NCBI GenBank assembly: GCA_017857815.1
Contig: JAFMCL010000023.1
Location: forward strand, 1 to 41,272
Length of the DNA: 41,272 bases
Direction of reading: 5' to 3'
Source: Flavobacteriaceae bacterium
GTDB lineage: Bacteria > Bacteroidota > Bacteroidia > Flavobacteriales > Flavobacteriaceae
Part shown: one piece after another, positions 15,502 to 32,523 of the stretch
Layout: every line of letters begins with the position of its first letter
Position numbering within the stretch: the first letter of the stretch is position 1
The notes under the pieces: model-generated
Told to the model about the DNA's origin: nothing
The model's input: the letters and a program-made list of their open reading frames with translations, nothing else
Databases searched by the model: none
Made by a program: the position numbers and the translations under genes

Positions 15502-15523
15502 TTTACGCAAACGTTTGCGTAAA
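15502..15523. promoter_or_regulatory. LacI-family operator upstream of susC
   Basis: A perfect 22-bp palindrome: half-site TTTACGCAAAC followed by its exact reverse complement, centred on CG as in LacI/PurR-type operators. It lies 97 bp before the susC start. The same site, with one symmetric C-to-T change, lies upstream of iolJ (30498-30519). A weak -7-like TAACTTTA lies at 15564-15571. The regulator encoded at 30571-31590 is the natural candidate to bind both sites. Confidence 0.85.
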
Positions 15524-15620
15524 CATTTAATTCGTTTTTTAAATTTATATACTACAAGATTATTAACTTTATCTTAAAATCAACAAAATACTAACCACTC
15601 AAATTAAATCTTTTATTCAC

Positions 15621-18600
15621 ATGAAAAAAATCATTTTTTACGCTTCCTTTCTTTTAGAAAAGCATCGTAATTACAATTTGAAAATTTGTTTTGTTCTAAT
15701 TTTATTTACAACAAACATCTATCAAACTCGCGCAAATCCTGATCCTACATTTGGTCAGGATGTTTTAGAAATTCAAAAAACAACCATAACGGGTAACATT
15801 ACTGATGCGGATGGACTACCCCTCCCAGGAGCCAATGTTGTTGAAAAAGGAACCACCAACGGAACACAGACTGATTTTAACGGTAATTATTCTATAACCG
15901 TAAGCAATGCAAATGCAGTACTGGTTTTTTCCTATGTTGGTTTTGTAACGACAGAGACTGCTATTGCAGGACAAAGTAATGTTTCAATGCAGATGCAATC
16001 AGATGCTGATAGCCTTGAGGAGGTTGTCGTTACGGGTTACGGAACTCAAAGAAAATCTGATGTAACGGGTGCAATTACTTCTTTAAAAAGTGACAGCTTT
16101 AATCGAGGAGTAGTAGCGAATCCTGGACAATTATTACAAGGTAAGATTTCAGGGGTTAATGTAACTTCTACCAGTGGAGAACCTGGAGCTGCCCAAAATA
16201 TAATCATTCGAGGTATTGGTAGTTTGAGGGCTGGAACAACACCGCTTTTCGTAGTAGACGGATTTATCATTGATAACAGTTCTTTCGGAGTTACTAATCC
16301 ATTAAACTTTATAAATCCCACCGATATAGCTTCTATGGATGTTTTGAAAGATGCATCTGCTACTGCGATTTATGGGGCAAGAGCTGCCAATGGGGTGATT
16401 GTGATTACCACTAAAAAAGGTAAATTAGGCAAAACAGAGATGAATCTTTCTGTTTCAACCGCCATGTCGACCATTGCAAATGGTATTGATGTGTTCAGCG
16501 CTTCTGAATTTAGAAAACAAGTCCCTGCAGTAGGAGGAACTTTAGTTGATGGTGGCGCCAATACCAACTGGCAAGATCAAGTTATGAGAACAGGTGTTTC
16601 TAAAAACATTAACTTTTCAATGAGTGGTAATGTAAACGAAAAATTCTCCTATTATACTTCTTTTGGAGTTGATGATCAAGAAGGTATTTTTAACAATAGT
16701 GATTTAAAAAGATATTCTGGACGTTTAAATTTAAACCAAAAAGGATGGGATGGACGTTTGAATATTGATGTTAATTTAACAGCCACTAGGAATTTAAATG
16801 AAAGACCCAATATTGAAAGCTCTGTTGTAGATATGTTACAGTTGAATCCTACACTTCCAGTCTTCACCAATGGTCAACCAACCGTATTGCAAGAGCGTTT
16901 AAACCCGATTGTTCGAAATGAGATTTATACGGATGAAATTGTTAACAATAGAATTTTGGCAAACTTTGCTCCTTCTATTGAAATTATCGAAGGGCTTACC
17001 TATAAACTCAATCTTGGTGTAGATTATTCCTCTGCCAATCGAGATAGATTTTCTAATCCTTATGCGCAACTTGAAGGAAATGAAAATGGTTCTCTATATA
17101 CTAGGGCTACCCTAAACAGTAATTTTCTGGTTGAAAACACTTTGACCTATAAGTTTAGTAAAGGAATCCACAATTTTGTTTTATTAGCAGGACACTCTTA
17201 TCAAGAAGCAACTTACAGTCATAAGACTTATGAATCTGAAGGCTTTGCTCTTAATGGCGTCGAGCCTCGCTACCAAGATCAAATCAGTTCAGATGTACTG
17301 CCGACTTCACTTGATGCAGAAGCATTTGTTAATGAACAAGAATCTTACTTTGGACGTGTAAATTATGGATACGATAATAAATATTTAATTACAGCAACGC
17401 TTCGTGCTGATGGCTCTTCAAAGTTTGGTGCAAATAATAAATATGGTTATTTCCCTTCTATGGCTTTGGGATGGAACATTACCAACGAAGAGTTTTTGGC
17501 TGATAATGATGCCATCACTAATTTAAAATTACGCGCAAGTTGGGGACAAACGGGAAACCAAGATGGGATTCCTAGTAAGGTGAGTTTGTCTAGTTATAAA
17601 GACTCCAAAGGAGATAATGACACCTATCCACTTAATGGAAATGAATCTTCGGTCAATGACTATCCTTATGGTACGGTACCCGTTCGAACTCCAAATCCTT
17701 TCTTAAAATGGGAAGTTTCAACCCAAGTTAATGTAGGTTTAGATTTTGCATTATTCGATGGAAGTCTCTCGGGAACATTTGATTACTTTAATAAAGTAGC
17801 TTCTGATGTTGTTTTGTTTGCCAATAAGGTCGATCCAATTCAACCGACTCAGTCTAACTGGACAAACATCCAGGATATGGAAATTTCAAACGCTGGAATT
17901 GAAATATCTCTGAATTATAATGGTGCTATTACTGAGGATTTTACTTATAACTTAGGAGGGAATATTTCTAAAATAAAGAATGAAGTAACCAATTCTCCCT
18001 ACCAAGTGTTAACTACGGGACAGGCAACTGGTGCAGGTCAAACAGGGGCAACCATTAATGGATATTTGAATGGGGAACCTATCGGAACATTCTATTTAAA
18101 AGAATTTACTGGAATTGGAGCCGATGGTTTAAGTACCTACAAAGATGTTGTTGCAGACGGAGAATCATTAGACAATGACCGTTCTGCTGTTGGAACGGCT
18201 TTGCCAGACGTCCTTTATGCCTTTTATCTTAATTTAAATTACAAAGATTTCGATTTAGGTTTAAACTTTAATGGCGTTTCCGGTAACAAAATTTACAACC
18301 ATACCACCATGTCACTATTCAGTTCAAGTCAACTGGCTAGAAACTTAAACACCACCGATTTTGCTACTCGTTTCTCAAATGAAGACAAAAGTAATGCCAA
18401 CGAGGTTTCTACTCGTTACTTAGAGGATGGTAGTTTTTTAAGACTAAATAATGCAACTCTTGGATACTCGCTAAACCCACAATCAATTGGTTTAGGAGAC
18501 TTTGTTAGCAATATTCGTTTATCGCTCACGGGTCAAAATTTATTTGTGATTTCGGATTACTCTGGCTTTGATCCTGAAGTAAATACGGGTAACAGCTTAG

Positions 18601-18683
18601 GAGGAGTACAGACATTTGGTATAGACCGTTTTACCTATCCTATGCCTAGAACCATTCTGTTCGGATTAAATGCATCATTCTAA
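15621..18683 (+). CDS. susC: SusC/RagA-family TonB-dependent outer-membrane transporter
   Basis: A 1020-aa outer-membrane protein. After an N-terminal signal region (about 1-38) comes a carboxypeptidase-D-like regulatory domain (DADGLPLPGANVVEKG, TQTDFNGNYSI). The SusC signature follows (LEEVVVTGYGTQRKSDVTGA), then the plug (IIRGIGSLRAGTTPLFVVDG, DASATAIYGARAANGVIVI) and a long 22-stranded beta-barrel ending in NASF, a typical C-terminal Phe. It would import a ligand captured by the SusD partner 15 bp downstream, powered by TonB. The operator upstream and the adjacent inositol operon suggest an inositol-containing ligand. That specificity is inferred from context only, since SusC sequence does not reveal it. 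Confidence 0.93.
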   Translation: MKKIIFYASFLLEKHRNYNLKICFVLILFTTNIYQTRANPDPTFGQDVLEIQKTTITGNITDADGLPLPGANVVEKGTTNGTQTDFNGNYSITVSNANAVLVFSYVGFVTTETAIAGQSNVSMQMQSDADSLEEVVVTGYGTQRKSDVTGAITSLKSDSFNRGVVANPGQLLQGKISGVNVTSTSGEPGAAQNIIIRGIGSLRAGTTPLFVVDGFIIDNSSFGVTNPLNFINPTDIASMDVLKDASATAIYGARAANGVIVITTKKGKLGKTEMNLSVSTAMSTIANGIDVFSASEFRKQVPAVGGTLVDGGANTNWQDQVMRTGVSKNINFSMSGNVNEKFSYYTSFGVDDQEGIFNNSDLKRYSGRLNLNQKGWDGRLNIDVNLTATRNLNERPNIESSVVDMLQLNPTLPVFTNGQPTVLQERLNPIVRNEIYTDEIVNNRILANFAPSIEIIEGLTYKLNLGVDYSSANRDRFSNPYAQLEGNENGSLYTRATLNSNFLVENTLTYKFSKGIHNFVLLAGHSYQEATYSHKTYESEGFALNGVEPRYQDQISSDVLPTSLDAEAFVNEQESYFGRVNYGYDNKYLITATLRADGSSKFGANNKYGYFPSMALGWNITNEEFLADNDAITNLKLRASWGQTGNQDGIPSKVSLSSYKDSKGDNDTYPLNGNESSVNDYPYGTVPVRTPNPFLKWEVSTQVNVGLDFALFDGSLSGTFDYFNKVASDVVLFANKVDPIQPTQSNWTNIQDMEISNAGIEISLNYNGAITEDFTYNLGGNISKIKNEVTNSPYQVLTTGQATGAGQTGATINGYLNGEPIGTFYLKEFTGIGADGLSTYKDVVADGESLDNDRSAVGTALPDVLYAFYLNLNYKDFDLGLNFNGVSGNKIYNHTTMSLFSSSQLARNLNTTDFATRFSNEDKSNANEVSTRYLEDGSFLRLNNATLGYSLNPQSIGLGDFVSNIRLSLTGQNLFVISDYSGFDPEVNTGNSLGGVQTFGIDRFTYPMPRTILFGLNASF

Positions 18684-18698
18684 TAAAAAAAATTTAAA

Positions 18699-20450
18699 AT
18701 GAAAAATAAAATAACACTAATAGCACTTGCAACATCTACGATATTCTTTTTGAGCTGTACAGATCTTGAAGAAAAGAGGTTAGATGAAGCTCCGTTTGGA
18801 GAACAAGCGGAATTAATAAGTGGTGCTCTGGCACCAGCATATGGATATCTTTCTTGGACCTGGAGGCATACCAACTATTACGGTTTGCAATTAATCTCTG
18901 CTGATGAAGCAATACTTCCCTACAGAGGTGGAACTGACTGGTATGATGGAGGTAAGTTTATAGCCGCTCATAAGCACACAATAACACCTTCCAATGGTCT
19001 GGTAAATGACGGTTGGAATCATATTACCACCAACCTTTCGAGAACCATCTCTGCAATTGAAGTTTTGAAGCCACTGGCTGAAGAAGGAAATGTCGATGCA
19101 AGTGGAGCTTTAAATGAAATGATTGCATTAAGAGGTTATTTGAATCTTTTACTGCTAGATGGTTGGGGCTTAGCATTAAAAAAAGAATCTTCAGGTGAAC
19201 TATCTGAAATTTTAAGAAAACAAGATGCCATAGATTATATTGAAAATGATTTCACTTCTGTTGTCGATGTGATCAATACAAACAGAGCTCCCGGAAGGAT
19301 TACTCAAGCTGCTGTTTGGGGATTTCTTTCAAGATTACATTTGAACGCAGCAGTGTATAGAGATCCCTATGGAACACCAAGCTTCTCTTCAGAGGATATG
19401 ACTAAAGTTATCGGATACACAAACAGTATAATTAATTCCAATAAATTTTCGCTTTCTCCTGAATATTTTGAGTTGTTTAATGATGATAATAATAGCAATT
19501 CTGAATTGATATTTGCTTTAGATCAACGGGGTGTCCTGAAATTAGAACATTCTCGATGGGCCTATTGGTCATTGGCGGGTTCATGGTTTCCCAGACCAGA
19601 ATTTCCAAGTGCTGATGGGACTGACGGACCAGCCATTACCTCTGATTTTTATCAAACTTGGGTAGATGCTTATGGAAATGTAGATCCAGCAACTGATGCT
19701 AGATTTTATCAAAAAAACACTATAATTCCTGAGGCACAGTTGAATGATTTTAATGGTCGTGACAGGTTGATTGCAACTGAAACAGACGACAGCTTTTTCT
19801 GTGTTGATCCAGATGATTTCAATATAGACAGAGGAATCATTCGCGGCGTTATTTGGGGCCCTAGAAAGGGTGATGACGGTAAGTTTGAAACTTGTGATGG
19901 AGGGGTTAAAATAGGCCCTGTAAAACAAAGAAAAGGAAATGGTCCGGATCGAAATGTTGGTTATGTTGACCATGTTTTACAAGTGGATTATACGAATGAA
20001 GGTTCTTATCACAACACCGGGTATAGAGTTTCAAAATATCAATTTAGTAGAACCTCTCCGAACGGTAACGGTTTTAGTAGTGTTGACCTTGTCTTGATGC
20101 GTTTGGCTGAAATCTATCTCATGCGCGCTGAAGCCAAGCTGAGAAATGGAGACAGCGCAGGAGCTTTAGCGGATGTAAATACGTTAAGAGCTTCTAGGAC
20201 TGCACGGCCAGAACAAACTCCACCAGCATTGAGTGCTATCACGCTAGATGGAATGCTTAGAGAACGTGGTTTTGAACTTTATTGGGAAGGGTTTAGACGC
20301 ACGGACCAAATACGTTTTGGAAAATATGAAGATTCTTGGACGGACAAATCAGATACTGACGTAAGTCACAGACTTTTTCCAATCCCTCAAGGTGCAATTG
20401 ATGCAGCTTCTGGGATCGATGGATTCCTTGAGCAGAATCAAGGGTACTAA
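18699..20450 (+). CDS. susD: SusD/RagB-family surface lipoprotein
   Basis: A 583-aa protein that starts 15 bp after susC, so the two form an operon. The lipoprotein signal ends FFLSC (Cys20). The N-terminal TPR-like region (ELISGALAPAYGYLSWTWRH), a central ligand-binding region rich in aromatic residues, and the C-terminal RagB/SusD signature (DLVLMRLAEIYLMRAEAKLR, then LRERGFELYWEGFRRTDQIR) are all present. It binds the substrate at the cell surface and lids the SusC barrel. No GH or CBM module is fused to it. A strong terminator follows. Confidence 0.93.
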   Translation: MKNKITLIALATSTIFFLSCTDLEEKRLDEAPFGEQAELISGALAPAYGYLSWTWRHTNYYGLQLISADEAILPYRGGTDWYDGGKFIAAHKHTITPSNGLVNDGWNHITTNLSRTISAIEVLKPLAEEGNVDASGALNEMIALRGYLNLLLLDGWGLALKKESSGELSEILRKQDAIDYIENDFTSVVDVINTNRAPGRITQAAVWGFLSRLHLNAAVYRDPYGTPSFSSEDMTKVIGYTNSIINSNKFSLSPEYFELFNDDNNSNSELIFALDQRGVLKLEHSRWAYWSLAGSWFPRPEFPSADGTDGPAITSDFYQTWVDAYGNVDPATDARFYQKNTIIPEAQLNDFNGRDRLIATETDDSFFCVDPDDFNIDRGIIRGVIWGPRKGDDGKFETCDGGVKIGPVKQRKGNGPDRNVGYVDHVLQVDYTNEGSYHNTGYRVSKYQFSRTSPNGNGFSSVDLVLMRLAEIYLMRAEAKLRNGDSAGALADVNTLRASRTARPEQTPPALSAITLDGMLRERGFELYWEGFRRTDQIRFGKYEDSWTDKSDTDVSHRLFPIPQGAIDAASGIDGFLEQNQGY

Positions 20451-20469
20451 GAGACCCCATACTCTCAAC

Positions 20470-20508
20470 AACAAAAAAGCAGGTGTAATTCACCTGCTTT
20501 TTTGTTTT
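20470..20508. terminator. Strong, probably bidirectional terminator between susD and iolG
   Basis: AACAAAAAAGCAGGTG (20470-20485) is perfectly complementary to CACCTGCTTTTTTGTT (20491-20506), with a 5-nt loop. The stem is 16 bp and its outer half is A/T, so it gives a U-run in both directions. It sits between the converging ends of susCD and the inositol operon. A smaller 7-bp hairpin without a clear T-run is at 20532-20554. Confidence 0.85.
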
Positions 20509-20666
20509 AATAAACGATTAACTTTTTTTAATATTCTGGCTTTGCCTCAGAATAATAACCCCGCATACAAAGAGCAAGTCTAATTCAGAAATCACTCCAA
20601 ACTCAAATAAGTTTAAGAAAAAACATGAAGTTTAAAGCATAGAATTAGAAAAAATTCCCCTTGTAA

Positions 20667-21674
20667 TTATTGAATTTCTTCAATCCTAACAGGCCTTTCT
20701 TCTTTAATAGATTTTAGAGCAGCAAGACCTATTTTGAGAGATATTAATCCATCTTGACCGTTTACTGGAAGTGAATCCCCGTTAATAAGACAACCCAAAA
20801 AGTTCAATAATTCGTTTTTATAAGCCTCAGCATAACGTTCTAAGAAAAAATGTAGGGGAAGGGAAGCTTCGACTCCTGTGGCGGTGTAGAGCCTATGAGA
20901 ATCATGAAAATTATTGTTCGACTGAACCATTCCCTTAGAACCAAAAACTTCAATTCTTTGGTCATAGCCATATTTTGCTTCTCTGCTATTGTCAATTACG
21001 GCCATGCTTTGGTCTTCATAGGTCAGGATCACGATGGCGGTATCTATATCACCTGCTTCACCAATTTTTTCATCAACCAGCACTGCACCTTTGGCATAGA
21101 CTTCAATTACTTCTTTTCCGACAATATATCTTGCCATATCAAAATCGTGGATGCTCATGTCTAAAAACAAACCTCCTGATTTTTTGATATAACTGATGGG
21201 CGGAGCTCCTGGATCTCTGCTTGTGATTTTTACCAAATGGGGAACGCCAACTTCTCCACCTTCAACCAAATCACGAATTTTAACGAACTCTTTGTCAAAT
21301 CTTCTGTTGAAACCCAACATCAATTTCACCCCACTGGCCTTGACAATACTCAGCACTTCAACAACACGATTCAGATTAAGATCCAGCGGTTTTTCACAAA
21401 AAACATGAATTCCAGCCTTGGCGGCAATTTCTACATAGTTTGCGTGGCTATCGGTTGGTGTACAGATAACAACGGCATCTAGAGTTTTAGAATTTATCAT
21501 TGTCTCATAAGAAGGTGTAACCAACTCAATTCCTTTCTTACGGGCCATTTCTAGTTCTGTTGCTATGGGATCCGCAACGGCTACTACTTCTACTTCATCC
21601 ATCCGAAGTAAATTGTCTAGGTGAATCTTACCAATTCTTCCCAATCCTGCGATACCAAATTTAATTTTAGTCAT
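20667..21674 (-). CDS. iolG: Inositol 2-dehydrogenase (Gfo/Idh/MocA family)
   Basis: A 335-aa cytoplasmic enzyme oxidising myo-inositol to 2-keto-myo-inositol with NAD+. The Rossmann motif GIAGLGRIG (7-15) begins the protein. CEKPLD (K95) and GGLFLDMSIHDFD (D172, H176) supply the Lys/Asp/His catalytic set of IolG (K97/D172/H176 in the Bacillus enzyme, from memory). SRDPGAPPISYIKKSGG is the family's substrate-loop signature. It is the last gene of the eight-gene inositol operon, 11 bp after iolE. A related scyllo-inositol dehydrogenase is the main alternative, but the signature and the operon favour IolG. Confidence 0.9.
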   Translation of the reverse strand: MTKIKFGIAGLGRIGKIHLDNLLRMDEVEVVAVADPIATELEMARKKGIELVTPSYETMINSKTLDAVVICTPTDSHANYVEIAAKAGIHVFCEKPLDLNLNRVVEVLSIVKASGVKLMLGFNRRFDKEFVKIRDLVEGGEVGVPHLVKITSRDPGAPPISYIKKSGGLFLDMSIHDFDMARYIVGKEVIEVYAKGAVLVDEKIGEAGDIDTAIVILTYEDQSMAVIDNSREAKYGYDQRIEVFGSKGMVQSNNNFHDSHRLYTATGVEASLPLHFFLERYAEAYKNELLNFLGCLINGDSLPVNGQDGLISLKIGLAALKSIKEERPVRIEEIQ

Positions 21675-21685
21675 ACTTCAATATA

Positions 21686-22591
21686 TTATAAACCTAGTGT
21701 TTTAATGTAATTTCTGTTTTTAAGTGCACAATTTTTTGGATTCCCCATCCCTGGTAAAACATCTTGTTCTACGACGATCCAATCTTTATAATTTAGTTTT
21801 TCTAATAAGGAAACAATGGATTTAAAATCAACGATTCCTTCCCCTAATTCGCAAAAGACCCCTCTTTTTATTGCACCAAAATAATCTTCTCCTTCCTTTT
21901 GTGCGGCTTGCGCTGCCAAAGGATCATAATCCTTAAAATGGACATGCCATATCCTTTCTTTGTGTTTTTTAATCGCCATTATGGGATCACCACCACCAAA
22001 AGCATAGTGACCCATATCCAAGCACAACCCGAGCAAGTTTGGATCTGTTAGCTCCATCAACTGGTCAATCTCCTCAGGAGTTTCTATAAAACCAGCACAA
22101 TGATGATGAAAAACGGTTCTGAGTCCATATTGTTCTTTTACTGCTTTTGCAATTCTTTCGGCTCCGTTGGCAAAGACTTTCCATAGCTCTTCAGAAAGCA
22201 TCATGCTACTTTCTACCCTACCAGCGTTCAATGTCCTTTCATAATTCGAACCATTGTCATCGGCCAGAACGATGAAAGACTTCTTATAATTCGCATCATG
22301 CATCAGTTTAGCTGTTCTTAATGCATTCGCAATTCCCGCGTCATGCTTGTTTTTATCGGACAAATCAACAGGAACAAAAGCACCCACCAATTCCAATTTT
22401 CTTTTTTGTATTTCCTTTCTAAGACCGATTGGTTCTGAGGGCATAAAACCCCAATCGCCCAATTCGGTTCCGACATAACCAGTCGCTTCTATTTCATCTA
22501 ACACCTCTTGAAAACTTTTTTCCTCTGACTTTTCCGCTAAGTCAAACTCTAATACTCCCCAAGAACAAGGTGCATTTGCGATTTTTATCAT
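21686..22591 (-). CDS. iolE: Myo-inosose-2 dehydratase (IolE-like TIM barrel)
   Basis: A 301-aa xylose-isomerase-like TIM-barrel protein of the usual IolE length. The N-terminal NAPCSWGVLEF and YVGTELGDWGF are typical of IolE. LCLDMGHYAFGGGDP and WHVHFKDYDP carry Asp/His metal ligands, and ELGEGIVDFKSIV and IVVEQDVLPG close the barrel. The enzyme removes water from 2-keto-myo-inositol, giving the cyclic dione used by IolD. It sits 9 bp after mmsA and 11 bp before iolG. An IolH/IolI-type epimerase is possible, but without another IolE in the operon the dehydratase role is required. Confidence 0.87.
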   Translation of the reverse strand: MIKIANAPCSWGVLEFDLAEKSEEKSFQEVLDEIEATGYVGTELGDWGFMPSEPIGLRKEIQKRKLELVGAFVPVDLSDKNKHDAGIANALRTAKLMHDANYKKSFIVLADDNGSNYERTLNAGRVESSMMLSEELWKVFANGAERIAKAVKEQYGLRTVFHHHCAGFIETPEEIDQLMELTDPNLLGLCLDMGHYAFGGGDPIMAIKKHKERIWHVHFKDYDPLAAQAAQKEGEDYFGAIKRGVFCELGEGIVDFKSIVSLLEKLNYKDWIVVEQDVLPGMGNPKNCALKNRNYIKTLGL

Positions 22592-22600
22592 AATACTAGT

Positions 22601-24076
22601 TTAAAATTTTCTTGACCATATATTTGGCCATCTCTCTATTACAACTTTCGTTTGAGTAAAAAACTCAATGGCATGATTTCCTTGACCGTGTAAGTCTCCG
22701 AAAAAACTATCCTTCCAACCACTAAAAGGAAATTGAGCCATTGGAGCCGCTACACCAATATTGATTCCAATGTTTCCAGCATCAGCTTCATTTCTGAATT
22801 TTCTAGCCATTGCGCCATTTTGAGTAAATAAACAAGCCATGTTGCCATAATTTCCACTGTTGACAAACTGGAGGGCTTCCTCAATGTTTTTCATTGAAAT
22901 CAGACTCATGACAGGACCAAAAATCTCAGTTTGGATGAGTTCTTTTCCTAAAGGAACATTTTCTAGGATTGTTGGGTTTAAAAAGTTTCCTTTTTCATAG
23001 CCAGATACCTCAGTATCCCGACCGTCTAAAAGTACATTTGCGCCCTCATCAACTCCTTTTTGGATTAAGAATTCGATCCTTTTCTTACTTTCAGGCGTAA
23101 TTACGGGGCCCATATTGGTGTCGCTATCCCAGCCATATCCTGACTTTCTTGATTTAACAACTTCATACAGCGCATCTTTGATGTTTCTCTTTTGATCATT
23201 AACGGTAATGATCGTTGAAGCAGCAAGACAGCGTTGTCCTGCACATCCATAAACAGAATCTGCTATGATTTTAGAAGACATTTCCACATCGCAATCGGGT
23301 AAAACAATCACAGGGTTTTTTGCTCCCCCTTGCGCCTGAACCCTTTTGCCATTTGCGGTTCCTTTAGAATAAATATATCTAGCTACTGGCGTACTTCCTA
23401 CAAAACTTATTGCTTTTATTGAAGGATGCTCCAAGATGGCATCTACTGTTTCTTTTCCTCCATGAACCAAGCTAAGGAGTCCGTTTGGAAGATCCAATTC
23501 ATCAAAAAACTCAAAGAGTTTCATCATCGTTAAGGGTACCTTCTCAGAAGGTTTCACAATCATGGCATTTCCAGTTGCGATCGCATAAGGTAAAAACCAA
23601 AATACGATCATACTTGGAAAATTAAATGGTGTGATGCAGGCAGTAACACCAATGGGCTGACGAATCATCATTTCGTCAATTCCAAAAGCAATGTCCTCAA
23701 TCACATCTCCTTTAATCAACATGGGTGTTCCACAGGCAACCTCGATATTTTCGATGGCACGCTGTATTTCTCCGATCGACTCTCCTTTTGTTTTTCCAGA
23801 TTCATCGGTAATTATTTTGGCCAATTCCTCCAAATTATTTTCCATGATATTTTTCAGCTTGTAAAGCTGTTGTACTCTTTTCATTACAGGAACTTTCTTC
23901 CATTCTAGGTAAGCTCCTTGTGCGCTTGTTGTGGCATCTTGAAGATCTTTTTGAGTTGCGGGTCCATATGGAACAGTCGCTATAACCTCCTGTGTTGCAG
24001 GGTTGTGTACATCAACTGTTTCGTTTGATGAGCTCTCTGCCCATGCGCCATTGATGTAATTTTTTAAACGATTCAT
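22601..24076 (-). CDS. mmsA/iolA: CoA-acylating (methyl)malonate-semialdehyde dehydrogenase
   Basis: A 491-aa aldehyde dehydrogenase. ITPFNFPSMIVFWFLPYA with Asn152, GSTPVARYIY, and GCAGQRCLAAST with nucleophile Cys283 are visible. The position of the usual general-base Glu reads GGAKNP, as in the CoA-dependent MMSDH subgroup, which lacks that Glu. It converts malonate semialdehyde from the inositol pathway into acetyl-CoA and CO2 and may also act in valine breakdown. It lies between the symporter gene (18-bp gap) and iolE (9-bp gap), which fits the IolA role. Confidence 0.92.
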   Translation of the reverse strand: MNRLKNYINGAWAESSSNETVDVHNPATQEVIATVPYGPATQKDLQDATTSAQGAYLEWKKVPVMKRVQQLYKLKNIMENNLEELAKIITDESGKTKGESIGEIQRAIENIEVACGTPMLIKGDVIEDIAFGIDEMMIRQPIGVTACITPFNFPSMIVFWFLPYAIATGNAMIVKPSEKVPLTMMKLFEFFDELDLPNGLLSLVHGGKETVDAILEHPSIKAISFVGSTPVARYIYSKGTANGKRVQAQGGAKNPVIVLPDCDVEMSSKIIADSVYGCAGQRCLAASTIITVNDQKRNIKDALYEVVKSRKSGYGWDSDTNMGPVITPESKKRIEFLIQKGVDEGANVLLDGRDTEVSGYEKGNFLNPTILENVPLGKELIQTEIFGPVMSLISMKNIEEALQFVNSGNYGNMACLFTQNGAMARKFRNEADAGNIGINIGVAAPMAQFPFSGWKDSFFGDLHGQGNHAIEFFTQTKVVIERWPNIWSRKF

Positions 24077-24094
24077 TTGTTATTTAAGATTAAA

Positions 24095-25693
24095 TTAAGC
24101 ATTATTTCCCAATAATATATAGATTAGAACAGTGACCAAACTGAGCCCTAGCGCCATTGGTTTTGCATACTTCCATGAAGTAAGATCAACGGCTCCCACA
24201 TCGGATATTTCATATAGATTTTTTCTTGGGTAGAAGTAGGAGACCAAATACATTATCCCAACATTTAAAACAAATTCGATTCCCCATAAATGAACAAAAT
24301 GAATGCCATGGCTGTTGTAGCCCCAAGTCAGAAATATATAAAATGAAAGCCCAAAAATCAGCGCAGTTTTTGCGGCAATAGCAGATATTTTTTTCATAAA
24401 AAAACCAGCAAGCAACACCGAAGCAATTGGGATGAAAAAGACCCCGTTAAGCTCTTGTAGCAGTTGGTACAAGCCATCTGGAGTATTGGCCATTAAGGGG
24501 GCAGCTAGAATGGCAAAAACCGCTAAAATTGCAGAGGTTATTTTACCGATAGAAACCAGTTTTTTATCGCTTACATTTTTCACAATGTGTTTCTTATAAA
24601 CATCAACACTAAACAAGGTCGCTGCAGAATTTAATACGGAATTAAAAGTACTTAAAACAGCTCCCATAATGACTGCTGCAAAAAAACCGATTAACCAAAC
24701 TGGCAAAACTTTTTTGACCAATTCTGGATAAACCGAATCTTGTTGATCGTAAAAGGTATCACTAAAGTAATAATAGCATATCACTCCAGGTAAGACAATC
24801 ACCAATGGGATTAAGATTTTAAATAGACCTGTGATCAAAAGTCCTTTTTGAGCTTCCTTTAAATTCTTAGCCCCTAATGCCCTTTGGATAATTGTTTGAT
24901 TCATGCCCCAAAAATAAAGTTGGTTGATAATCAGACCCGTAAACAAAACTTCGAAGGGAAGTACTGAGTCACTAGCTCCTATAACATTAAATTTTTCGGG
25001 AGCATATTCGTAAACCTTAGTTAATCCATCGAGGATGTTGCTGTCGCCTATGGCATAAAGCGCCAAAACAGGAATTAAAAGTCCGCCCAATAACAATCCA
25101 ATTCCGTTAATTGTGTCTGAAAAAGCAACTGCCTTTAAGCCGCCAAAGACGGCATAAATTGATCCGAGGATTCCTATGAATAATATCGTGATCCACAAGC
25201 CCTGAGACTTCTCAACTCCCAATACGTCGGAGACGCCAAAAAGACTTTCAATGCCCAGCGCACCCGAATAGAGCACGATGGGTAGAAGGGTGATTATAAA
25301 TGAGGTGATCAAAACGATGGCCACAAAAGTCCTTAGCACTCCATCAAATCTTTTCTCAAGAAATTGAGGGATTGTGGTCAACCCCATTTTTAAGTATTTG
25401 GGAATAAAAAACAATGCCGCAATGGCCAAAGCCAATGAAGAAGTCACTTCCCAAGCTATAACAATAAACCCATTGACATAGGAGTTGCCATTCATTCCAA
25501 TCAAATGTTCGGAAGAAATATTGGTCAACAACATCGATCCTGCAATTACAATTCCAGATAAACTTCTTCCTCCCAAAAAATATCCATCAGAAGAATTTAG
25601 ATTGGTTTTCTTTAGACTGTACCAGGTGAAAAAAGCAACACCTCCTGTGAAGAGTATAAATGAAACGAGCGTAATAATAAGATCTGAATTCAT
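24095..25693 (-). CDS. Sodium/solute symporter (SSS family), probable inositol transporter
   Basis: A 532-aa multi-spanning inner-membrane protein with about 13-14 hydrophobic segments. SSS landmarks are SSDGYFLGGRSLSGIVIAGS, LLTNISSEHLIGMNG in the first helices (sodium-site region), GSIYAVFGGLKAVAFSDTI and AAVIMGAVLSTFNSVLNSAA. It resembles the glucose/inositol branch (SglT-like). Its position inside the inositol operon, 9 bp after iolD, strongly suggests sodium-coupled uptake of myo-inositol from the periplasm. It would be the only inner-membrane transporter of the locus. Specificity is inferred from position. Confidence 0.88.
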   Translation of the reverse strand: MNSDLIITLVSFILFTGGVAFFTWYSLKKTNLNSSDGYFLGGRSLSGIVIAGSMLLTNISSEHLIGMNGNSYVNGFIVIAWEVTSSLALAIAALFFIPKYLKMGLTTIPQFLEKRFDGVLRTFVAIVLITSFIITLLPIVLYSGALGIESLFGVSDVLGVEKSQGLWITILFIGILGSIYAVFGGLKAVAFSDTINGIGLLLGGLLIPVLALYAIGDSNILDGLTKVYEYAPEKFNVIGASDSVLPFEVLFTGLIINQLYFWGMNQTIIQRALGAKNLKEAQKGLLITGLFKILIPLVIVLPGVICYYYFSDTFYDQQDSVYPELVKKVLPVWLIGFFAAVIMGAVLSTFNSVLNSAATLFSVDVYKKHIVKNVSDKKLVSIGKITSAILAVFAILAAPLMANTPDGLYQLLQELNGVFFIPIASVLLAGFFMKKISAIAAKTALIFGLSFYIFLTWGYNSHGIHFVHLWGIEFVLNVGIMYLVSYFYPRKNLYEISDVGAVDLTSWKYAKPMALGLSLVTVLIYILLGNNA

Positions 25694-25702
25694 AATTAAA
25701 AA

Positions 25703-27562
25703 TTAGAGATAATACTTTTGTGATTTTTTATTTTCTATATATTTTTTATAGGATTCTGAAACATTTTCTTTCTCAGAGACTTCGGCAACAGGAACATCCC
25801 ACCAAGTAAATCCTGGAACTCCTTTTTTCCGATCCACATCGATATAGATCAGTGTTGTGTGATCAATTGATTTTGCAGCAACAAGTGCTTTGTTAAACTC
25901 CGAAATGTTTTTTGTTTTAATAACATGCGCTCCCATACTTTGCGCATTTAAAACAAAATCAGTAGGTAAGTAATCACCGTCAAGTTGATCAGTTGATTCA
26001 TTTCTGTATTTGTAATGCGTTCCAAAACCATCGCTTCCCACGGAATTTGATAGACTTCCAATACTTGAATAACCATTATTGTTTAATAAAATAATAGTGA
26101 TCTTTTGTTTTTCCTGAATCGAAGTCACAATTTCTTGCGCCATCATCAGGTAACTTCCATCTCCAATCATAACATATATTTCACTCTTTGGAAGTGCCAT
26201 TTTAGCTCCCAAACCTCCAGCAATTTCATACCCCATGCAAGAGTAGCCATACTCAAGATGAAATCCTTTTGGGCTTTGTGTTCGCCATAATTTATGTAAA
26301 TCACCAGGCAAACTCCCTGCAGCGCAAACCACCACATCTTCGGGCTTTGAAAACGAATTAACCGCCCCGATGACTTCCCCTTGGAATGCGGGGGTTTCAT
26401 TTTTCTCGGTATAAATTTTAGACACAAATTGATCCCAGCTCTTGTTAAACGAGATGATTTTATCTGAATAGTTTTCATCAACTTTAAAGGAAGTCAAACG
26501 CGCATCTATCACTTCTAAAATAGATTTAGCATCCCCTACCAAAGGGAGCGCACTGTGCTTAAAGGAATCAAATTCTGCGACATTAATATTAATGAATTTC
26601 ACATTTGGATTTTGGAAAGCAGATTTTGAAATGGTTGTAAAATCAGAATATCTTGTTCCAATACCAATCACCAAATCCGTATCATTTGCAATTTCGATGG
26701 CTCCAGGAGTACCCGTGACTCCAGCAGCACCTAAGTTTTGAGGCTCATCATAATTTAAAGATCCTTTGCCAGCAAATGTTTCTACGACAGGAATTCCGGT
26801 TCTATTGACAAACGATTTTAGCGTCTTTGTTGCCCCGCTGTAGATTGTGCCTCCCCCCGAAACAATTAATGGTTTTTTACTTTCATTAATCATCGCAATT
26901 GCTTTGGAAAGTAGGTTTTGATCGGGCATATTTCTGCTGATATTCCAAACACGTTTTTTAAACAATTGAACAGGAAAATCAAAAGACTCCGCCTGAACGT
27001 CTTGAGGGATACACAGGGTAACCGCACCTGTTTCAGCAGGGGAGGTTAGTACCCGCATTATTTCTGGCAAGGCTGTGATAAGTTGCTCTGGACGATTTAT
27101 TCTGTCCCAATATTTTGAAACGGGTTTAAAGCAATCATTGACAGAAATGTCCTGGGTTAAATTAGATTCCAATTGTTGCAGTACGGGAGCTACTTGTCTT
27201 GTTGCAAAAATATCTCCGGGAATTAAAAGTACTGGAATCCTATTGATAGTTGCAGCTGCTGCACCTGTTATCATGTTTGTAGCCCCAGGGCCGATCGAGG
27301 TCGTACAAACAAAAGTCTGCAAACGGTTTTTGACTTTGGCATAAGCAGCGGCGGTGTGCACCATCGCTTGTTCGTTTCTGGCGACGTAAAATGGAAAATC
27401 AGTATTTTGATGAAGGGCTTGACCAATACCCGCAACATTACCGTGTCCTAAAATTCCAAAACAGCCTGCAAAAAATTTCTGTTGATGACCGTCGCGTTCA
27501 ACATACTGATTTTTTAAAAACTCAATTGTTGCTTGCCCGACTGTTAATTTTTTTGTTTTCAT
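25703..27562 (-). CDS. iolD: 3D-(3,5/4)-trihydroxycyclohexane-1,2-dione hydrolase (ThDP-dependent)
   Basis: A 619-aa enzyme of the acetolactate-synthase-like ThDP family. The N-terminal PYR domain has ARNEQAMVHTAAAYAK with the ThDP-activating Glu64. The central domain has PLIVSGGGTIYSGA. The C-terminal PP domain has the ThDP/Mg motif from GDGSYLMMAQEI to LLNNNGYSSIG. The long N-terminal segment with FFAGCFGILGHGNVAGIGQA is typical of IolD rather than acetolactate synthase. It opens the ring of the cyclic dione to 5-deoxy-D-glucuronate. It follows iolC by 11 bp. Confidence 0.93.
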   Translation of the reverse strand: MKTKKLTVGQATIEFLKNQYVERDGHQQKFFAGCFGILGHGNVAGIGQALHQNTDFPFYVARNEQAMVHTAAAYAKVKNRLQTFVCTTSIGPGATNMITGAAAATINRIPVLLIPGDIFATRQVAPVLQQLESNLTQDISVNDCFKPVSKYWDRINRPEQLITALPEIMRVLTSPAETGAVTLCIPQDVQAESFDFPVQLFKKRVWNISRNMPDQNLLSKAIAMINESKKPLIVSGGGTIYSGATKTLKSFVNRTGIPVVETFAGKGSLNYDEPQNLGAAGVTGTPGAIEIANDTDLVIGIGTRYSDFTTISKSAFQNPNVKFININVAEFDSFKHSALPLVGDAKSILEVIDARLTSFKVDENYSDKIISFNKSWDQFVSKIYTEKNETPAFQGEVIGAVNSFSKPEDVVVCAAGSLPGDLHKLWRTQSPKGFHLEYGYSCMGYEIAGGLGAKMALPKSEIYVMIGDGSYLMMAQEIVTSIQEKQKITIILLNNNGYSSIGSLSNSVGSDGFGTHYKYRNESTDQLDGDYLPTDFVLNAQSMGAHVIKTKNISEFNKALVAAKSIDHTTLIYIDVDRKKGVPGFTWWDVPVAEVSEKENVSESYKKYIENKKSQKYYL

Positions 27563-27573
27563 TTTTAATAGAA

Positions 27574-28587
27574 TTAAAACCCACCATTTTTATTTATAAA
27601 CTCAAGGGATTGTTCTAGGGTGGGCATGAAATTTGCGCACCCTTTTTGTGTCACTACATGCGCACCACTGGCGTTACCCATTCTGCATGATTTATAAAGA
27701 TCCCAGTCATTGATTATACCATAGAGAAATCCACTTGCAAAAGCATCCCCAGCCCCTAAAACATTGAGAATTTTAACAGGAAATCCGGGCACTGATGTCA
27801 TTGACCCTTCATGACTGTGAATACTCGCGCCTTTTTCACCTCTTTTAACGATTAGCGTTTCTACACCAGTCGATAATATTTTTTTAATGGCCAAGTCAAT
27901 ATCTCCCTTAATTTCAGGGGCTGATATTTGTTGGTCCTTTATTTCAACTTGGGAGACATTTTCCATCGTAGCAGCTAGGATTTCCTCTTCCGTCCCAATT
28001 GCAATTTTAACCCGAGGTAAAATAGCCCTCATAGTTACTCCAAAAGCTCGATAGTCATGCCATTGATCTGCTCTAAAATCTAAATCTAAAACCACTTCAA
28101 CATTGTTTTTCAAGGCTATTTCAGTTGCATGAAAAGTTGCACTTCGGGTGGGTTCGACGTTCATAGCGGTACCATTAATTAGCAGCACTTTATAGTCTGA
28201 AATATTGGCGCGATCTACGTCGTCAATATCTACCTGACTGTCAGAAGCATTGTCTCTGTAATAAACGAGCGGAAACTTGTCAGGGGGTTCGATTCCAAGA
28301 ATAACAGCACTTGTTCTCGTTCCCTTTTTAGTTGGAACGTTGGTGATATTGACTCCCTCTTCGGTTAAAAAATTAATTAAAAACTCTCCAACCTTGTCTT
28401 CTCCAACTGCGGATAATAAACTGGCGTCGAGTCCCAATCTAGAACAGCCAACTGCGATATTTAGAGGGGAGCCTCCTACAAAAGCATCGAATCCTTCAAT
28501 TAGATGAAATGGTGCCCCAATATTTTGGGAATAAAGATCAATTGAAGACCTTCCAAAAGTGATTATATCGTGTTTATTATTCCTCAT
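27574..28587 (-). CDS. iolC: 5-dehydro-2-deoxygluconokinase (PfkB family)
   Basis: A 337-aa ribokinase-like sugar kinase. The PfkB N-terminal signature region (GGSPLNIAVGCSRLGLDASL) and the C-terminal NVLGAGDAFASGFLYG with catalytic Asp281 are present. DFRADQWHDYRAF is an IolC-characteristic stretch. It phosphorylates 2-deoxy-5-keto-D-gluconate to the 6-phosphate. The start codon overlaps the iolB stop by 4 bp, suggesting translational coupling. There is no fused DUF2090 aldolase-like domain as in some proteobacterial IolC proteins, consistent with a separate iolJ. Confidence 0.92.
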   Translation of the reverse strand: MRNNKHDIITFGRSSIDLYSQNIGAPFHLIEGFDAFVGGSPLNIAVGCSRLGLDASLLSAVGEDKVGEFLINFLTEEGVNITNVPTKKGTRTSAVILGIEPPDKFPLVYYRDNASDSQVDIDDVDRANISDYKVLLINGTAMNVEPTRSATFHATEIALKNNVEVVLDLDFRADQWHDYRAFGVTMRAILPRVKIAIGTEEEILAATMENVSQVEIKDQQISAPEIKGDIDLAIKKILSTGVETLIVKRGEKGASIHSHEGSMTSVPGFPVKILNVLGAGDAFASGFLYGIINDWDLYKSCRMGNASGAHVVTQKGCANFMPTLEQSLEFINKNGGF

Positions 28588-29468
28588 TTATTCTCTTTAT
28601 TGTTCATTTTTGCAGTTACTAGTGGCAACCTATTGTCTTTTGCACTCCAAGAATCATAAATCCATTCATGATCAGGATCTGTTGTATTGGCTAAACATTG
28701 ATCAGTTCCAGCTAGAAAATTCAGATAATAACAATGAAAACCATGTTCTGCCACTACAGGGTGAAATCCTTTTGGAATCATCACCACTTCATTGTGATGA
28801 GGTCTCACGATTTCATCAAGGGATTTGTCTTTTGTATAAACTTGCTGAATTGCGTAGGCCTCAGGTTTTTGGAACTTATAAAAATAAGTTTCCTCTTGTA
28901 TGGGTTCTAAAACATTTCCTTTTTCATCCAAAATTCTCTCATCGTGTTTATGTGCTGGAAAAGAACTCCAGTTTCCCGAAGGGGTGTAAACCTCTCTACA
29001 AACAATTTTGCTACAACCAAAACCAGGTGGGACAAGATCATTGAATTGTCTTGTGGCATTGTCTCCTCCAAAAATCACAACGGGAGTATCCTCCGGGGTA
29101 ACAAATTTTGGAGGAAAAGATTCTTCGGATTTACACCAGCCATAGGCGATGTCAAGTTTTTCGCTTGTTGCCGATAGCTTAAACGAAGTGTTGATGGGAA
29201 GATAAAGTGTGTGAGCAACGCCGCTAAATACGTCTTTTCTACCATTGACTGTTTCCCAGCTCCCTTTGTCACTTGTCACTTTAAAGTTTCCACTTAATAA
29301 AACAATCACCATTTCATTGTCTAGGGTGTTGTGTTCCCAGACTTCGTCATGATTGAACATCCTCGCTTCAAAACTTAAATAATTCCAATTTGCACTTTCA
29401 GGAGTTATGCTTTGGTAGATACTTGAACCTTTTTTAGGTTGGACGAGTAGTTGATATTTATTGCTCAT
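28584..29468 (-). CDS. iolB: 5-deoxy-glucuronate isomerase
   Basis: A 294-aa bicupin of normal IolB length. YLSFEARMFNHDEVWEH in the first cupin is recognisable. In the second, WSSFPAHKHDE (H173, H175), EETYFYKF (E192/E193) and PHHNEVVMIPKGFHPVVAEH supply the likely metal ligands. It converts 5-deoxy-D-glucuronate to 2-deoxy-5-keto-D-gluconate, between IolD and IolC in the pathway. It starts 3 bp after iolJ and overlaps iolC by 4 bp. Confidence 0.94.
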   Translation of the reverse strand: MSNKYQLLVQPKKGSSIYQSITPESANWNYLSFEARMFNHDEVWEHNTLDNEMVIVLLSGNFKVTSDKGSWETVNGRKDVFSGVAHTLYLPINTSFKLSATSEKLDIAYGWCKSEESFPPKFVTPEDTPVVIFGGDNATRQFNDLVPPGFGCSKIVCREVYTPSGNWSSFPAHKHDERILDEKGNVLEPIQEETYFYKFQKPEAYAIQQVYTKDKSLDEIVRPHHNEVVMIPKGFHPVVAEHGFHCYYLNFLAGTDQCLANTTDPDHEWIYDSWSAKDNRLPLVTAKMNNKENK

Positions 29469-29471
29469 TTT

Positions 29472-30413
29472 TTATTGATTGAATTCAATTGCTTTTCCGG
29501 TTGCACCTAACAAATCAAATTTTTGTTGCATAAACTTTACATATTCTTCGATGTAGGTTTTACCGGGGTTTATGGGATCAAAAAGTTCAGGCGAGTCTCT
29601 AAAGAATTCTCTGTGAACTCGAGTCCAAAGTAAACGCGTATCTGTTGCAATATTAATCTTACAAATACCATATTTTATCGCTTTAATGATCTCCTCCTGC
29701 GAAACACCAGCGGCATTTTGATTGAGTTGACCCCCCGCCTTATTAATTCTCTTTATTTCCACATTATTAACCGACGAACCTCCATGAAGTACGATAGGGA
29801 AATTTGGGATGCGTTCTTGTATTTCTTTAAGGATGTCAAATTGAATTCCTTGTCCTCCCGAAAACTTATAGGCTCCATGACTGGTTCCAACTGCTACTGC
29901 AATACTATCGCATTTGGTTCGAGCGACAAACTCGGCTACTTCAGAGGGGTTTGTATATTTAGAATCTTTCTCATCAATCGAAATATCATCTTCAACTCCG
30001 CTTAATACGCCCAATTCAGCTTCAACAAAAATACCGTTTTTGTGCGCAGCTTTAACCACTTCAGAGGTTCTCTTTATATTATTTTCAAAATCATCATGCG
30101 ATGCGTCAATCATTACGGACTGGTATTGATTTGATTTTATAGCATCAAATGCATGAGCTTCATTACCATGGTCTAGGTGGACACAATAAACGGCTTTGGG
30201 GTAAATTTTCGCTGCGGCATTGATCATCGCGATCATCATTAAAGGACTTGCATAGTTTCTGGCAACTGGAGTAAGTTGAACCAGAAAAGGCGCATTGGCT
30301 TTTGCTCCTGCCTTAAACAGTCCCAAAACTTGTTCCATAGTAAAAACATTTACTGCCGGAATTGCATACCTACCGTAGCATTTGTTGAATAAATCTTTAG
30401 AAGTAACAGTCAT
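29472..30413 (-). CDS. iolJ: Class II aldolase, 6-phospho-5-dehydro-2-deoxy-D-gluconate aldolase
   Basis: A 313-aa zinc-dependent class II aldolase of the FbaA/GatY/IolJ family. Motifs are VHLDHGNEA (catalytic D81, zinc H82), VEAELG (E133 region), GTSHGAYKF (zinc H179), VLHGGSSV (zinc H210) and KINIATDTR for phosphate binding. In the inositol context it cleaves 2-deoxy-5-keto-gluconate-6-phosphate to DHAP and malonate semialdehyde. It is the first gene of the operon. The operator palindrome is 84 bp upstream and a TAnnTTTG element is 26 bp upstream. Fructose-bisphosphate aldolase activity cannot be excluded from sequence. Confidence 0.88.
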   Translation of the reverse strand: MTVTSKDLFNKCYGRYAIPAVNVFTMEQVLGLFKAGAKANAPFLVQLTPVARNYASPLMMIAMINAAAKIYPKAVYCVHLDHGNEAHAFDAIKSNQYQSVMIDASHDDFENNIKRTSEVVKAAHKNGIFVEAELGVLSGVEDDISIDEKDSKYTNPSEVAEFVARTKCDSIAVAVGTSHGAYKFSGGQGIQFDILKEIQERIPNFPIVLHGGSSVNNVEIKRINKAGGQLNQNAAGVSQEEIIKAIKYGICKINIATDTRLLWTRVHREFFRDSPELFDPINPGKTYIEEYVKFMQQKFDLLGATGKAIEFNQ

Positions 30414-30438
30414 TTTTTTTAACAGTGTCTATTTTAGG

Positions 30439-30446
30439 CAAATCTA
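30439..30446 (-). promoter_or_regulatory. Candidate -7 promoter element of the inositol operon
   Basis: TAGATTTG on the minus strand matches the Bacteroidota -7 consensus TAnnTTTG exactly. It sits 26 bp before the iolJ ATG, which would leave a leader of about 20 nt. No well-spaced TTG for the -33 box is clear. The operator lies about 51 bp further upstream. Confidence 0.5.
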
Positions 30447-30497
30447 TTGTGAAAAAACAACAATTAATTGATTAACAAAAGTGATGAGGAGCTTAAC

Positions 30498-30519
30498 TTT
30501 ATGCAAACGTTTGCATAAA
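30498..30519. promoter_or_regulatory. LacI-family operator upstream of iolJ
   Basis: A perfect 22-bp palindrome: half-site TTTATGCAAAC followed by its exact reverse complement, with a central CG. It lies in the 157-bp gap between the end of the LacI gene and iolJ. It differs from the susC site (15502-15523) only by the symmetric C/T at position 5 of each half. It includes the GCAAACGTTTGC core typical of LacI/PurR-type proteins. Confidence 0.88.
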
Positions 30520-30570: not shown

Positions 30571-31590
30571 TTAAAGAAATTTTGAAGACTCACGAGTTAT
30601 CAATTCGGTTTTAAAAACCTCATGGCGGAATTCAATTTTTGCATCGACATCCTTCAAGTGATGTAATAAAATTCTTGCAGAAAGCATTCCAATACTGAAT
30701 ACCGGTTGAAGCACCGTAGAGAGAGAAGGGGACACAAATGATGAATGGGGATCATCGTTAAAACCTATGATGGAGAGCTCTTCAGGAATTTTTATATTCA
30801 TTTTTTTGGCAACATTTATCGCCGCAATTGCAATGTTGTCATTGACTGCAAAAATTGCATCAGGGGGGTTCTTAAGTTTTAAAAGATCTTTAGAGGTCTT
30901 AATTCCGCTTTTGGATGTAAAGCCCGATACATGATGAATATATTCTTTTTTAATAGGAATCTTATGCTTTTTTAAAGCATCTAAATACCCTTTTAAACGA
31001 TGCTTGGAGGTGCTTGAATTATGGGGGCCTCCTAAATGAGCGATTTTTTTACAACCACTTTGGATTAAAAATTCTACTGCTTCAAATGCACCGCTATAAT
31101 CGTCGACCAGTACCTTATCTGCTTTTACTCCAGGGCAATCTCTATCAAAAATAACGATAGGGATTCCTTTTTTCTGTAATTTTTTTAAATGATCAAAATT
31201 TTTCGTTTCGGAAGAGGTGGAGACTAAAACTCCATCAACTTGAAGTTTTTCTAGTTTTTGGATGAGCACGACTTCCTCTTCATAGGATTCGTTAGAAATA
31301 CAGACCATTAGGTTGAAAGCAGTATTTGATAGCACGTCTTGAATGGAAGTTATGATAGCAGAATAAAAATGACTCGTAATCTGCGGTACAATCACTCCAA
31401 TCGTATTTGATTTTCTGCGAAGCAAATTGATGGCCATAATATTGGGCTGATAATTCAGCTTTTCAGCCAATGAAATCACATTTTTTTTAGTTTTTTCACT
31501 AATTGAAATGTGATTGTTCAGTGCCCTCGAGACTGTTGAGGGGGCAACCTTTAGTTTGTTTGCGATGTCCCTAATGGTGATTCTTCCCAT
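30571..31590 (-). CDS. LacI-family transcriptional regulator of the inositol locus
   Basis: A 339-aa regulator. The N-terminal helix-turn-helix (ITIRDIANKLKVAPSTVSRA, about residues 4-25) and the hinge helix leading into NTIGVIVPQI are canonical. Residues about 60-335 form a periplasmic-binding-protein-like effector domain (VLVDDYSGAFEAVEFLIQSG, GFNDDPHSSFVSPSLSTVLQ). It is encoded directly upstream of the inositol operon on the same strand, and two matching palindromic operators exist, at iolJ and at susC. The effector is probably inositol or a pathway intermediate (inference). The sequence does not settle whether it represses or activates. Confidence 0.9.
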   Translation of the reverse strand: MGRITIRDIANKLKVAPSTVSRALNNHISISEKTKKNVISLAEKLNYQPNIMAINLLRRKSNTIGVIVPQITSHFYSAIITSIQDVLSNTAFNLMVCISNESYEEEVVLIQKLEKLQVDGVLVSTSSETKNFDHLKKLQKKGIPIVIFDRDCPGVKADKVLVDDYSGAFEAVEFLIQSGCKKIAHLGGPHNSSTSKHRLKGYLDALKKHKIPIKKEYIHHVSGFTSKSGIKTSKDLLKLKNPPDAIFAVNDNIAIAAINVAKKMNIKIPEELSIIGFNDDPHSSFVSPSLSTVLQPVFSIGMLSARILLHHLKDVDAKIEFRHEVFKTELITRESSKFL

Positions 31591-31770: not shown

Positions 31771-32523
31771 ATGTATAAGAATATTATTCTAATCCTCAGT
31801 GCTTTATGCTTATTGGCGTTTAATCAACTAGCAGGACAGCAAAAAATTCACTCTCATAATGATTATCATCAAAACATTCCTTTTTGGCTGGCCTATGGCT
31901 GTGGTCTTGATTCGATTGAAGTAGATGTTTTTCTCAAAAACAATGACTTAATGGTTGCCCATCATGAAAATGAGATCATCGAAAACAGGACTATTGAAAG
32001 TCTTTACCTGAATCCGATTCGTAATTTACTTTCATTAAATCTTGACAAACAAGCCCTTCAATTGCTAATTGATATTAAGACAGCTCCCTATGAAACAATC
32101 GATCGGCTGGTTCTAATTTTAAAAAAATATCCAGACATTACCAGTAACCCATTAGTTTCAATTGTCATCTCTGGTAGTCAACCCAAAATTGTGGATTATC
32201 CTAATTATCCCAATTACATAAAATTTGATTACCAAAAATTAATTAAAATTACCGATCAAAACATTTTAGATAAAGTGGGATTAATAAGTCTTAGTTTAAG
32301 GAAGTTTTCAAATTGGAATGGTTTGTCGGATATAAGTTCTGAAGATCAGGAAATAATTAAAGAAGCAATCCAAAAGGCACATTCTTACGGAAAACCTTTT
32401 AGGTTTTGGGCGACACCAGATACGGAAAAAGCATGGAAAACTTTTGCGCAATTCGGAGTGGATTACATCAATACTGACAAACCATGTCAAGCTTCAAATT
32501 TTTTAAACTCAGCGCTTAAATAA
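31771..32523 (+). CDS. Exported PI-specific phospholipase C / GDPD-like phosphodiesterase
   Basis: I chose the ATG at 31771 because a signal peptide follows (MYKNIILILSALCLLAFNQL, then AGQ). The frame is open to 31642. The 250-aa protein shows the PLC/GDPD TIM-barrel signature: KIHSHNDYHQ (H27, H29, N30, D31), SIEVDVFLKN (E50, D52) and VAHHENE (H64, H65), with LLIDIKT and PFRFWATPDTEKAW later. It would hydrolyse a phosphodiester outside the cytoplasm. It starts about 180 bp from, and divergent to, the LacI gene. Release of inositol phosphate from a phosphoinositide-like substrate would feed the adjacent pathway, but substrate choice is inference; glycerophosphodiesters are an alternative. Confidence 0.78.
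   Translation: MYKNIILILSALCLLAFNQLAGQQKIHSHNDYHQNIPFWLAYGCGLDSIEVDVFLKNNDLMVAHHENEIIENRTIESLYLNPIRNLLSLNLDKQALQLLIDIKTAPYETIDRLVLILKKYPDITSNPLVSIVISGSQPKIVDYPNYPNYIKFDYQKLIKITDQNILDKVGLISLSLRKFSNWNGLSDISSEDQEIIKEAIQKAHSYGKPFRFWATPDTEKAWKTFAQFGVDYINTDKPCQASNFLNSALK

Follow-up and report, generated by a model that had tools for sequence, protein, structure and literature searches.

LacI-type IolR regulons for inositol use are already known. In the account given in PMC4052901, a LacI-family regulator controls inositol genes through an even palindrome with a central CG, which lies 140-30 bp from the start codon. Here, we describe a locus that resembles these regulons in both respects. It resides in a 41,272-nucleotide stretch of DNA from a Flavobacteriaceae bacterium (assembly GCA_017857815.1, contig JAFMCL010000023.1; hereafter the window), where two 22-bp palindromes, O1 before a susC gene and O2 before the iolJ gene of an inositol (iol) operon, would place a SusCD outer-membrane uptake system and inositol catabolism under one LacI-family protein, P0001. 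We consider this flavobacterial regulon to be real, well supported and locally encoded.

The locus differs from the IolR regulons, as set out in PMC4052901, in that SusCD is a target and in that the sites of its relatives are mostly CC/GG-centred. Ravcheev et al. 2014 (PMC4052901) include one Bacteroides group, the sole group of the phylum, and the account consulted here does not name inositol for that group. Three further systems, compared here as their sources describe them, share some of its features. IolQ/DegA of Bacillus subtilis (PMC5504672) is a LacI-family repressor tied to inositol use, but it controls iolX from a site (AGAAARCGCTTKCK) other than GCAAACGTTTGC and has no SusCD target. 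IpsA of Corynebacterium (PMC3899939) is of LacI type with myo-inositol as effector, but activates ino1, for inositol synthesis, and cell-wall genes rather than catabolism or SusCD. In the Caulobacter IolR module (PMC2597717), the operons for inositol transport and catabolism are joined by one palindrome across species, as proposed here, but the palindrome is GGAA-N6-TTCC, the transporter is of the ABC type and the regulator is placed in a separate class of inositol regulators. Inositol catabolism is rare in Flavobacteriaceae (2% of 810 species, according to PMC9430895), and no description of a SusCD-inositol LacI regulon from this family was found in the titles and abstract openings of the openly licensed papers surveyed.

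O1 and O2 are perfect palindromes, each with the central CG expected of LacI/GalR operators, and their sole difference is a single symmetric C/T transition per half-site. The pair had been reported in a sequence-only reading of the window, and its coordinates and sequences were re-found exactly. No other perfect 22-bp palindromes occur in the window (100 mononucleotide shuffles gave 0.02 on average). With as many as 3 mismatches, the window holds two matches against 0.01 expected, and two matches were seen in 0 of 100 dinucleotide shuffles. The genome as a whole (55 contigs totalling 2,198,915 bp; completeness 99.58%) again has O1 and O2 as its sole matches at this threshold, with 0 for a reversed-pattern control. 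The core GCAAACGTTTGC is found exactly at these two places only, and with one mismatch at 7 further places compared to 5 for the control. The shuffles and the genome scan thus bear out the earlier view that such shared sites were unlikely by chance, and the genome-wide palindrome scan, for which many unrelated sites would have been the contrary outcome, returned two sites, both at the locus. The centre of O1 lies 108.5 nt before the susC ATG (15621) and that of O2 95.5 nt before the iolJ ATG (30413).

P0001 combines an N-terminal LacI helix-turn-helix with a periplasmic-binding-like sugar-sensing domain, as in the LacI/GalR family. Two genes in the genome match the LacI model, P0001 and one on contig C30, and their recognition segments read PSTVSRALNNH and TGTVDRVLHKR, respectively. 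The C30 protein was set aside as a binder of O1 and O2 since its recognition helix differs; a palindrome filter on its 19-kb surroundings (L044) gave no operator of its own. The suggestion that a single LacI serves both sites therefore stands insofar as P0001 alone has a fitting helix, although a second LacI gene is present. Orthologues of P0001 (58.7-97% identity; next best 45%) were sought in 149 family genomes, the genomes named here and 22 genomes of the genus, and found in G018, G006, G112, G161 and loci L045-L049. Together with P0001, these ten inositol LacIs form one clade with support 1.0 in a tree of 47 sequences (37 of them other LacIs; L026/L117 and L035/L118 each represent one gene entered under two names). 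The LacI and SusC matches of G173, a twin entry of G149 that is only 69% complete, have the same coordinates as those of G149 and were counted once. Outside the family, a LacI from Bacteroidales (42% identity), which has SusCD genes next to it, shows a one-mismatch near-match to the 16-mer defined below (L050 9823-9844).

The arrangement around O2 is conserved. In all ten orthologous loci, the window included, lacI is followed by iolJ and a palindromic site lies in the gap between them, with its centre 92.5-104.5 nt before iolJ. A 16-mer, AYGCAAASSTTTGCRT, was derived from the aligned locus sites, so that its presence there is circular while its counts elsewhere test rarity. It is exact at the iolJ gap in 8/10 loci, with 1 mismatch in G006 and 2 in G161, where the core is shifted to ATGCAATCGATTGCAT. 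In eight orthologue-bearing genomes (G161 left out), 16 of the 17 exact places are at the iol/SusC/GDPD locus (GDPD denoting a phosphodiesterase gene taken up below), and the reversed control gave 0 in all eight. The 17th place (G018 C5:75655) precedes genes for an ECF sigma factor, FecR and a SusC (34-38% identity), which may also belong to the regulon. In the family set, the 16-mer is present in 11/149 genomes, namely in 4/4 with an orthologous LacI and 7/145 without (control 0 in all; Fisher p=1.7e-5, a partly circular value, as these sites had supplied the pattern). IolD was found at E<=1e-100 in 9/149 genomes. Five of these nine (G052, G065, G081, G095 and G099) gave neither an orthologue-level LacI nor the 16-mer; for G099, whose contig begins inside iolJ, the assembly may lack the LacI gene. 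As a side observation, iolC, the symporter gene and mmsA are each matched in two pieces in L045 (5308-11294), a metagenome-assembled genome, which probably reflects assembly errors.

At the SusCD end of the proposed regulon, conservation is looser. Orthologues of the window's SusC (60-71% identity) occur in five relatives: G018, G150 (locus L046), G151 (locus L047), G006 and G152. The operator directly precedes susC in L046 and G006, while that of G018 precedes an ECF sigma-FecR pair located before susC, so that it stands at the orthologue or its ECF-sigma/FecR genes in 3/4 relatives with a visible promoter. In G152, a contig end truncates susC at its start, and the promoter is off the contig. 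L047 and L049 carry the operator ahead of another SusC (30% identity) at the locus; L049 is from Muricauda sp. TY007, which can be cultured and has a comparable layout. Searches for SusC at E<=1e-100 gave none in G161 and G112, both incomplete. SusCD is thus a recurrent yet variable member of the regulon. The claim that SusCD and iol belong together is supported, as relatives have sites at both genes, with the correction that SusCD varies: in the two closest relatives it was not found next to the operon. In G018, the placing of a LacI-type operator before an ECF sigma-FecR pair ahead of susC is seen twice (L109 12311-14443; L176 2653-4708), an arrangement that could represent a LacI layer above cell-surface signalling.

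The operator is also used by a second flavobacterial LacI clade (L114-L119). Its members are 37-40% identical to P0001, have almost the same recognition helix and operators that are the same as or nearly the same as those of the window, and lie with SusC at 6/6 loci. They differ in the hinge, which has Phe in 6/6, whereas 9/10 inositol LacIs have Leu; in LacI proteins the hinge residue inserts at the operator centre. For L115, the sole one of the six loci scanned with Pfam, the neighbours are GH20 proteins, a glucosamine-6-phosphate isomerase family protein and an amidohydrolase, and the locus is therefore likely to serve hexosamine use. Among the seven genomes that have the 16-mer and no orthologous LacI, five (G001, G031, G119, G121 and G143) have it near SusC and a LacI of 38-40% identity; in G126 it is before another SusC and in G073 inside a coding frame. 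The operator centre is CC/GG in most relatives (L046 11049-11070; L110 972-993; L113 3947-3968), not CG, and the window, with just two LacI genes in its genome, shares the CG centre with the other clade. The CC/GG centre may serve to avoid cross-talk between LacI clades, an idea that G006, with CG at iolJ and 7 LacI matches, does not readily fit.

The sequences themselves show the two sites, the lack of others in the genome, the conservation of their position among relatives and the LacI clade that goes with them. Shared control of O1 and O2 by one LacI is strongly supported because of the genome-wide scan and the conserved site position in relatives, and on this basis we hold it to be very probable. 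As the best explanation overall, in which we place moderate confidence, we infer that P0001, as the local regulator of inositol use, binds both palindromes, so that the SusCD importer and the iolJ-B-C-D-symporter-mmsA-iolE-iolG operon come under joint control. If P0001 works as LacI proteins usually do, it would repress both until an inositol-derived signal binds the sugar-sensing domain and P0001 is released. Given shared control, repression seems fairly likely. The common operator and the linkage suggest that SusCD would import an inositol-containing compound.

Several observations weigh against this explanation. The full 22-mer is not family-specific, as it occurs at up to 3 mismatches in 37/149 family genomes, the same number as for the reversed control. 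At this threshold it recovered the iol locus sites of G006, G112 and G149 but missed those of G018, L046, L047 and L048. An identical 22-mer adjoins the other-clade LacI in G143, and near-identical ones do so in more genomes; the motif by itself thus does not single out inositol genes. Because L047 and L049 are almost identical in sequence and L045 closely resembles the window, the number of independent loci is below 10. The susC orthologue of G151, which is also preceded by a FecR gene, has no site within 2 mismatches in L173, which covers just 266 bp upstream of the last open reading frame. In G149 and G099, with iol operons sharing about 96% DNA identity with that of the window, no SusCD was seen beside the operon; synteny ends just past iolG and the best SusC matches are 35% and 33% identical. 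Finally, the position of the iolJ operators disfavours simple promoter blocking. At 7/7 scored sites of the second clade, the distance from the operator centre to the start of a perfect TAnnTTTG box is 24-25 nt, a spacing at which the operator would cover the promoter, while 0/8 iolJ operators have a perfect box at this distance. Promoter scoring left out L045 and L049 as near-duplicates of the window and L047, and box scoring left out the site at L114 6253.

Since the iolJ operator is further upstream than in the second clade, activation is a serious rival to repression within the same regulon: the LacI would be bound at a constant distance upstream of the core promoter, with contact to RNA polymerase gained or lost when an inositol-derived ligand is bound. 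We regard it as possible, though on the unlikely side. If the box occupies -12 to -5 (PMC9723704), the perfect box of the window's iolJ, 62 nt from the operator centre, would put the centre of O2 near -74. Moreover, the most conserved 14-column block of the iolJ set is T-rich and starts 43 nt downstream of the centre, which was equalled in 0/2000 rotations, a test uncorrected for relatedness of the sequences. The LacI-type IpsA, as described in PMC3899939, provides a case of an activator with myo-inositol as effector. On the other hand, the sets do not point to a common promoter element, as the best window is at 58 nt in the SusC set and at 11 nt in the combined set, and of the two 7-of-8 boxes at the window's susC, located at 27 and 51 nt, the former is near the blocking geometry.

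Binding of O1 and O2 by different regulators, P0001 at O2 and, for example, a protein encoded elsewhere and outside the LacI model at O1, would agree with the use of one operator by two LacI clades in the family and with the one transition per half by which the sites differ. We nevertheless consider it very unlikely, because the genome has only two LacI-model genes, the other with a different recognition helix, and because relatives have near-identical sites at both genes. Nothing was found in favour of a chance likeness, or of palindromes without a regulatory role, which is extremely improbable; a chance origin was rejected on the shuffles, the genome scan and the position conserved at iolJ in 10/10 loci.

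The features of the locus are collected in Table 1. A complete iol operon, with all genes on the minus strand, adjoins lacI, and it converges with the susCD operon near 20.5 kb. The adjacent susC and susD are of the named families of the SusCD uptake system. Although its score is below the cut-off, the iolE product is a clear homologue, named also from operon context, and the symporter is, judging from the operon, likely the inner-membrane inositol importer.

Table 1. Coordinates of the operators and genes of the proposed inositol regulon in the window.
Feature	Coordinates	Strand	Description and basis
Operator O1	15502..15523	no strand	Perfect 22-bp palindrome TTTACGCAAACGTTTGCGTAAA, upstream of susC
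susC	15621..18683	+	TonB-linked outer-membrane importer, 1020 aa; TIGR04056, 750.6 bits vs cut-off 368
susD	18699..20450	+	Surface lipoprotein, 583 aa; Pfam SusD_RagB (PF07980)
iolG	20667..21674	-	Inositol 2-dehydrogenase; TIGR04380, 422.7 bits vs cut-off 355
iolE	21686..22591	-	Inosose dehydratase; TIGR04379, 207.7 bits, under cut-off 290; also operon context
mmsA/iolA	22601..24076	-	CoA-acylating methylmalonate-semialdehyde dehydrogenase; TIGR01722, 540.5 bits vs cut-off 448.5
Symporter gene	24095..25693	-	Solute:sodium symporter; NF007790, 709.1 bits vs cut-off 401
iolD	25703..27562	-	Trihydroxycyclohexane-dione hydrolase; TIGR04377, 899.7 bits vs cut-off 715
iolC	27574..28587	-	PfkB-family kinase; Pfam PfkB; name from operon context
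iolB	28584..29468	-	KduI/IolB family isomerase; Pfam KduI/IolB
iolJ	29472..30413	-	Class II aldolase at the head of the operon; Pfam F_bP_aldolase; name from operon context
Operator O2	30498..30519	no strand	Perfect 22-bp palindrome TTTATGCAAACGTTTGCATAAA, between lacI and iolJ
lacI-family regulator (P0001)	30571..31590	-	339 aa; PF00356, 52.1 bits vs 27; PF13377, 113.1 bits vs 26.5
GDPD-type phosphodiesterase gene	31771..32523	+	250 aa; inferred ATG (open reading frame opens at 31642); Pfam GDPD_2

The GDPD gene beyond lacI is a possible member of the regulon. In the window gap, no operator was found for it (best match 4 mismatches of 16). A GDPD homologue is linked in 8/10 loci including the window, the exceptions being L048 and the short contig of G112. 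Close to the 5' end of the homologue, there is an exact 16-mer in L046, G018 and G006 and a 2-mismatch site in L047/L049 and G161. In L046 (107-1948) and G018 (L109 8424-10352), the two that were scanned, GDPD is fused to an alkaline phosphatase domain. L046 and G112 also have a GH92 gene nearby. The GDPD and GH92 genes suggest that the wider substrate would be inositol bound in phosphodiesters or glycans. A more specific proposal, which is speculative and improbable, is that phosphodiesters such as glycerophosphoinositol are the source from which the regulon scavenges inositol: SusCD would import the headgroup across the outer membrane, GDPD would free the inositol, the symporter would import it, and the LacI, as an inositol-dependent activator at an upstream site, would switch on all of these. 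In G018, genes for a lantibiotic dehydratase and a LanC-like protein (L109 2599-6130) are located a few kb from the GDPD gene.

Upstream of susC, the window contains genes for an alpha-L-rhamnosidase with GH78-type domains and a GH43-like protein (9499-13628); the operator was sought in the gaps at 12271-12600 and 14290-15500 and not found there. Further upstream (4261-9077), a PSD1/PSCyt2/PSCyt1 protein is followed by a DUF1501 protein, a pair associated with Planctomycetes.

The most interesting sides of the locus are the link between SusCD and inositol, the phosphodiesterase sites in relatives and the position of the operator. That two LacI clades whose substrates apparently differ use one operator is a warning for annotation based on motifs only. 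SusCD substrates are usually guessed from neighbouring glycosidases, and the common operator would here give a concrete substrate class for a SusCD pair. For the Flavobacteriaceae, the locus adds a LacI-type inositol regulon to a family in which the catabolism of this compound is rare.

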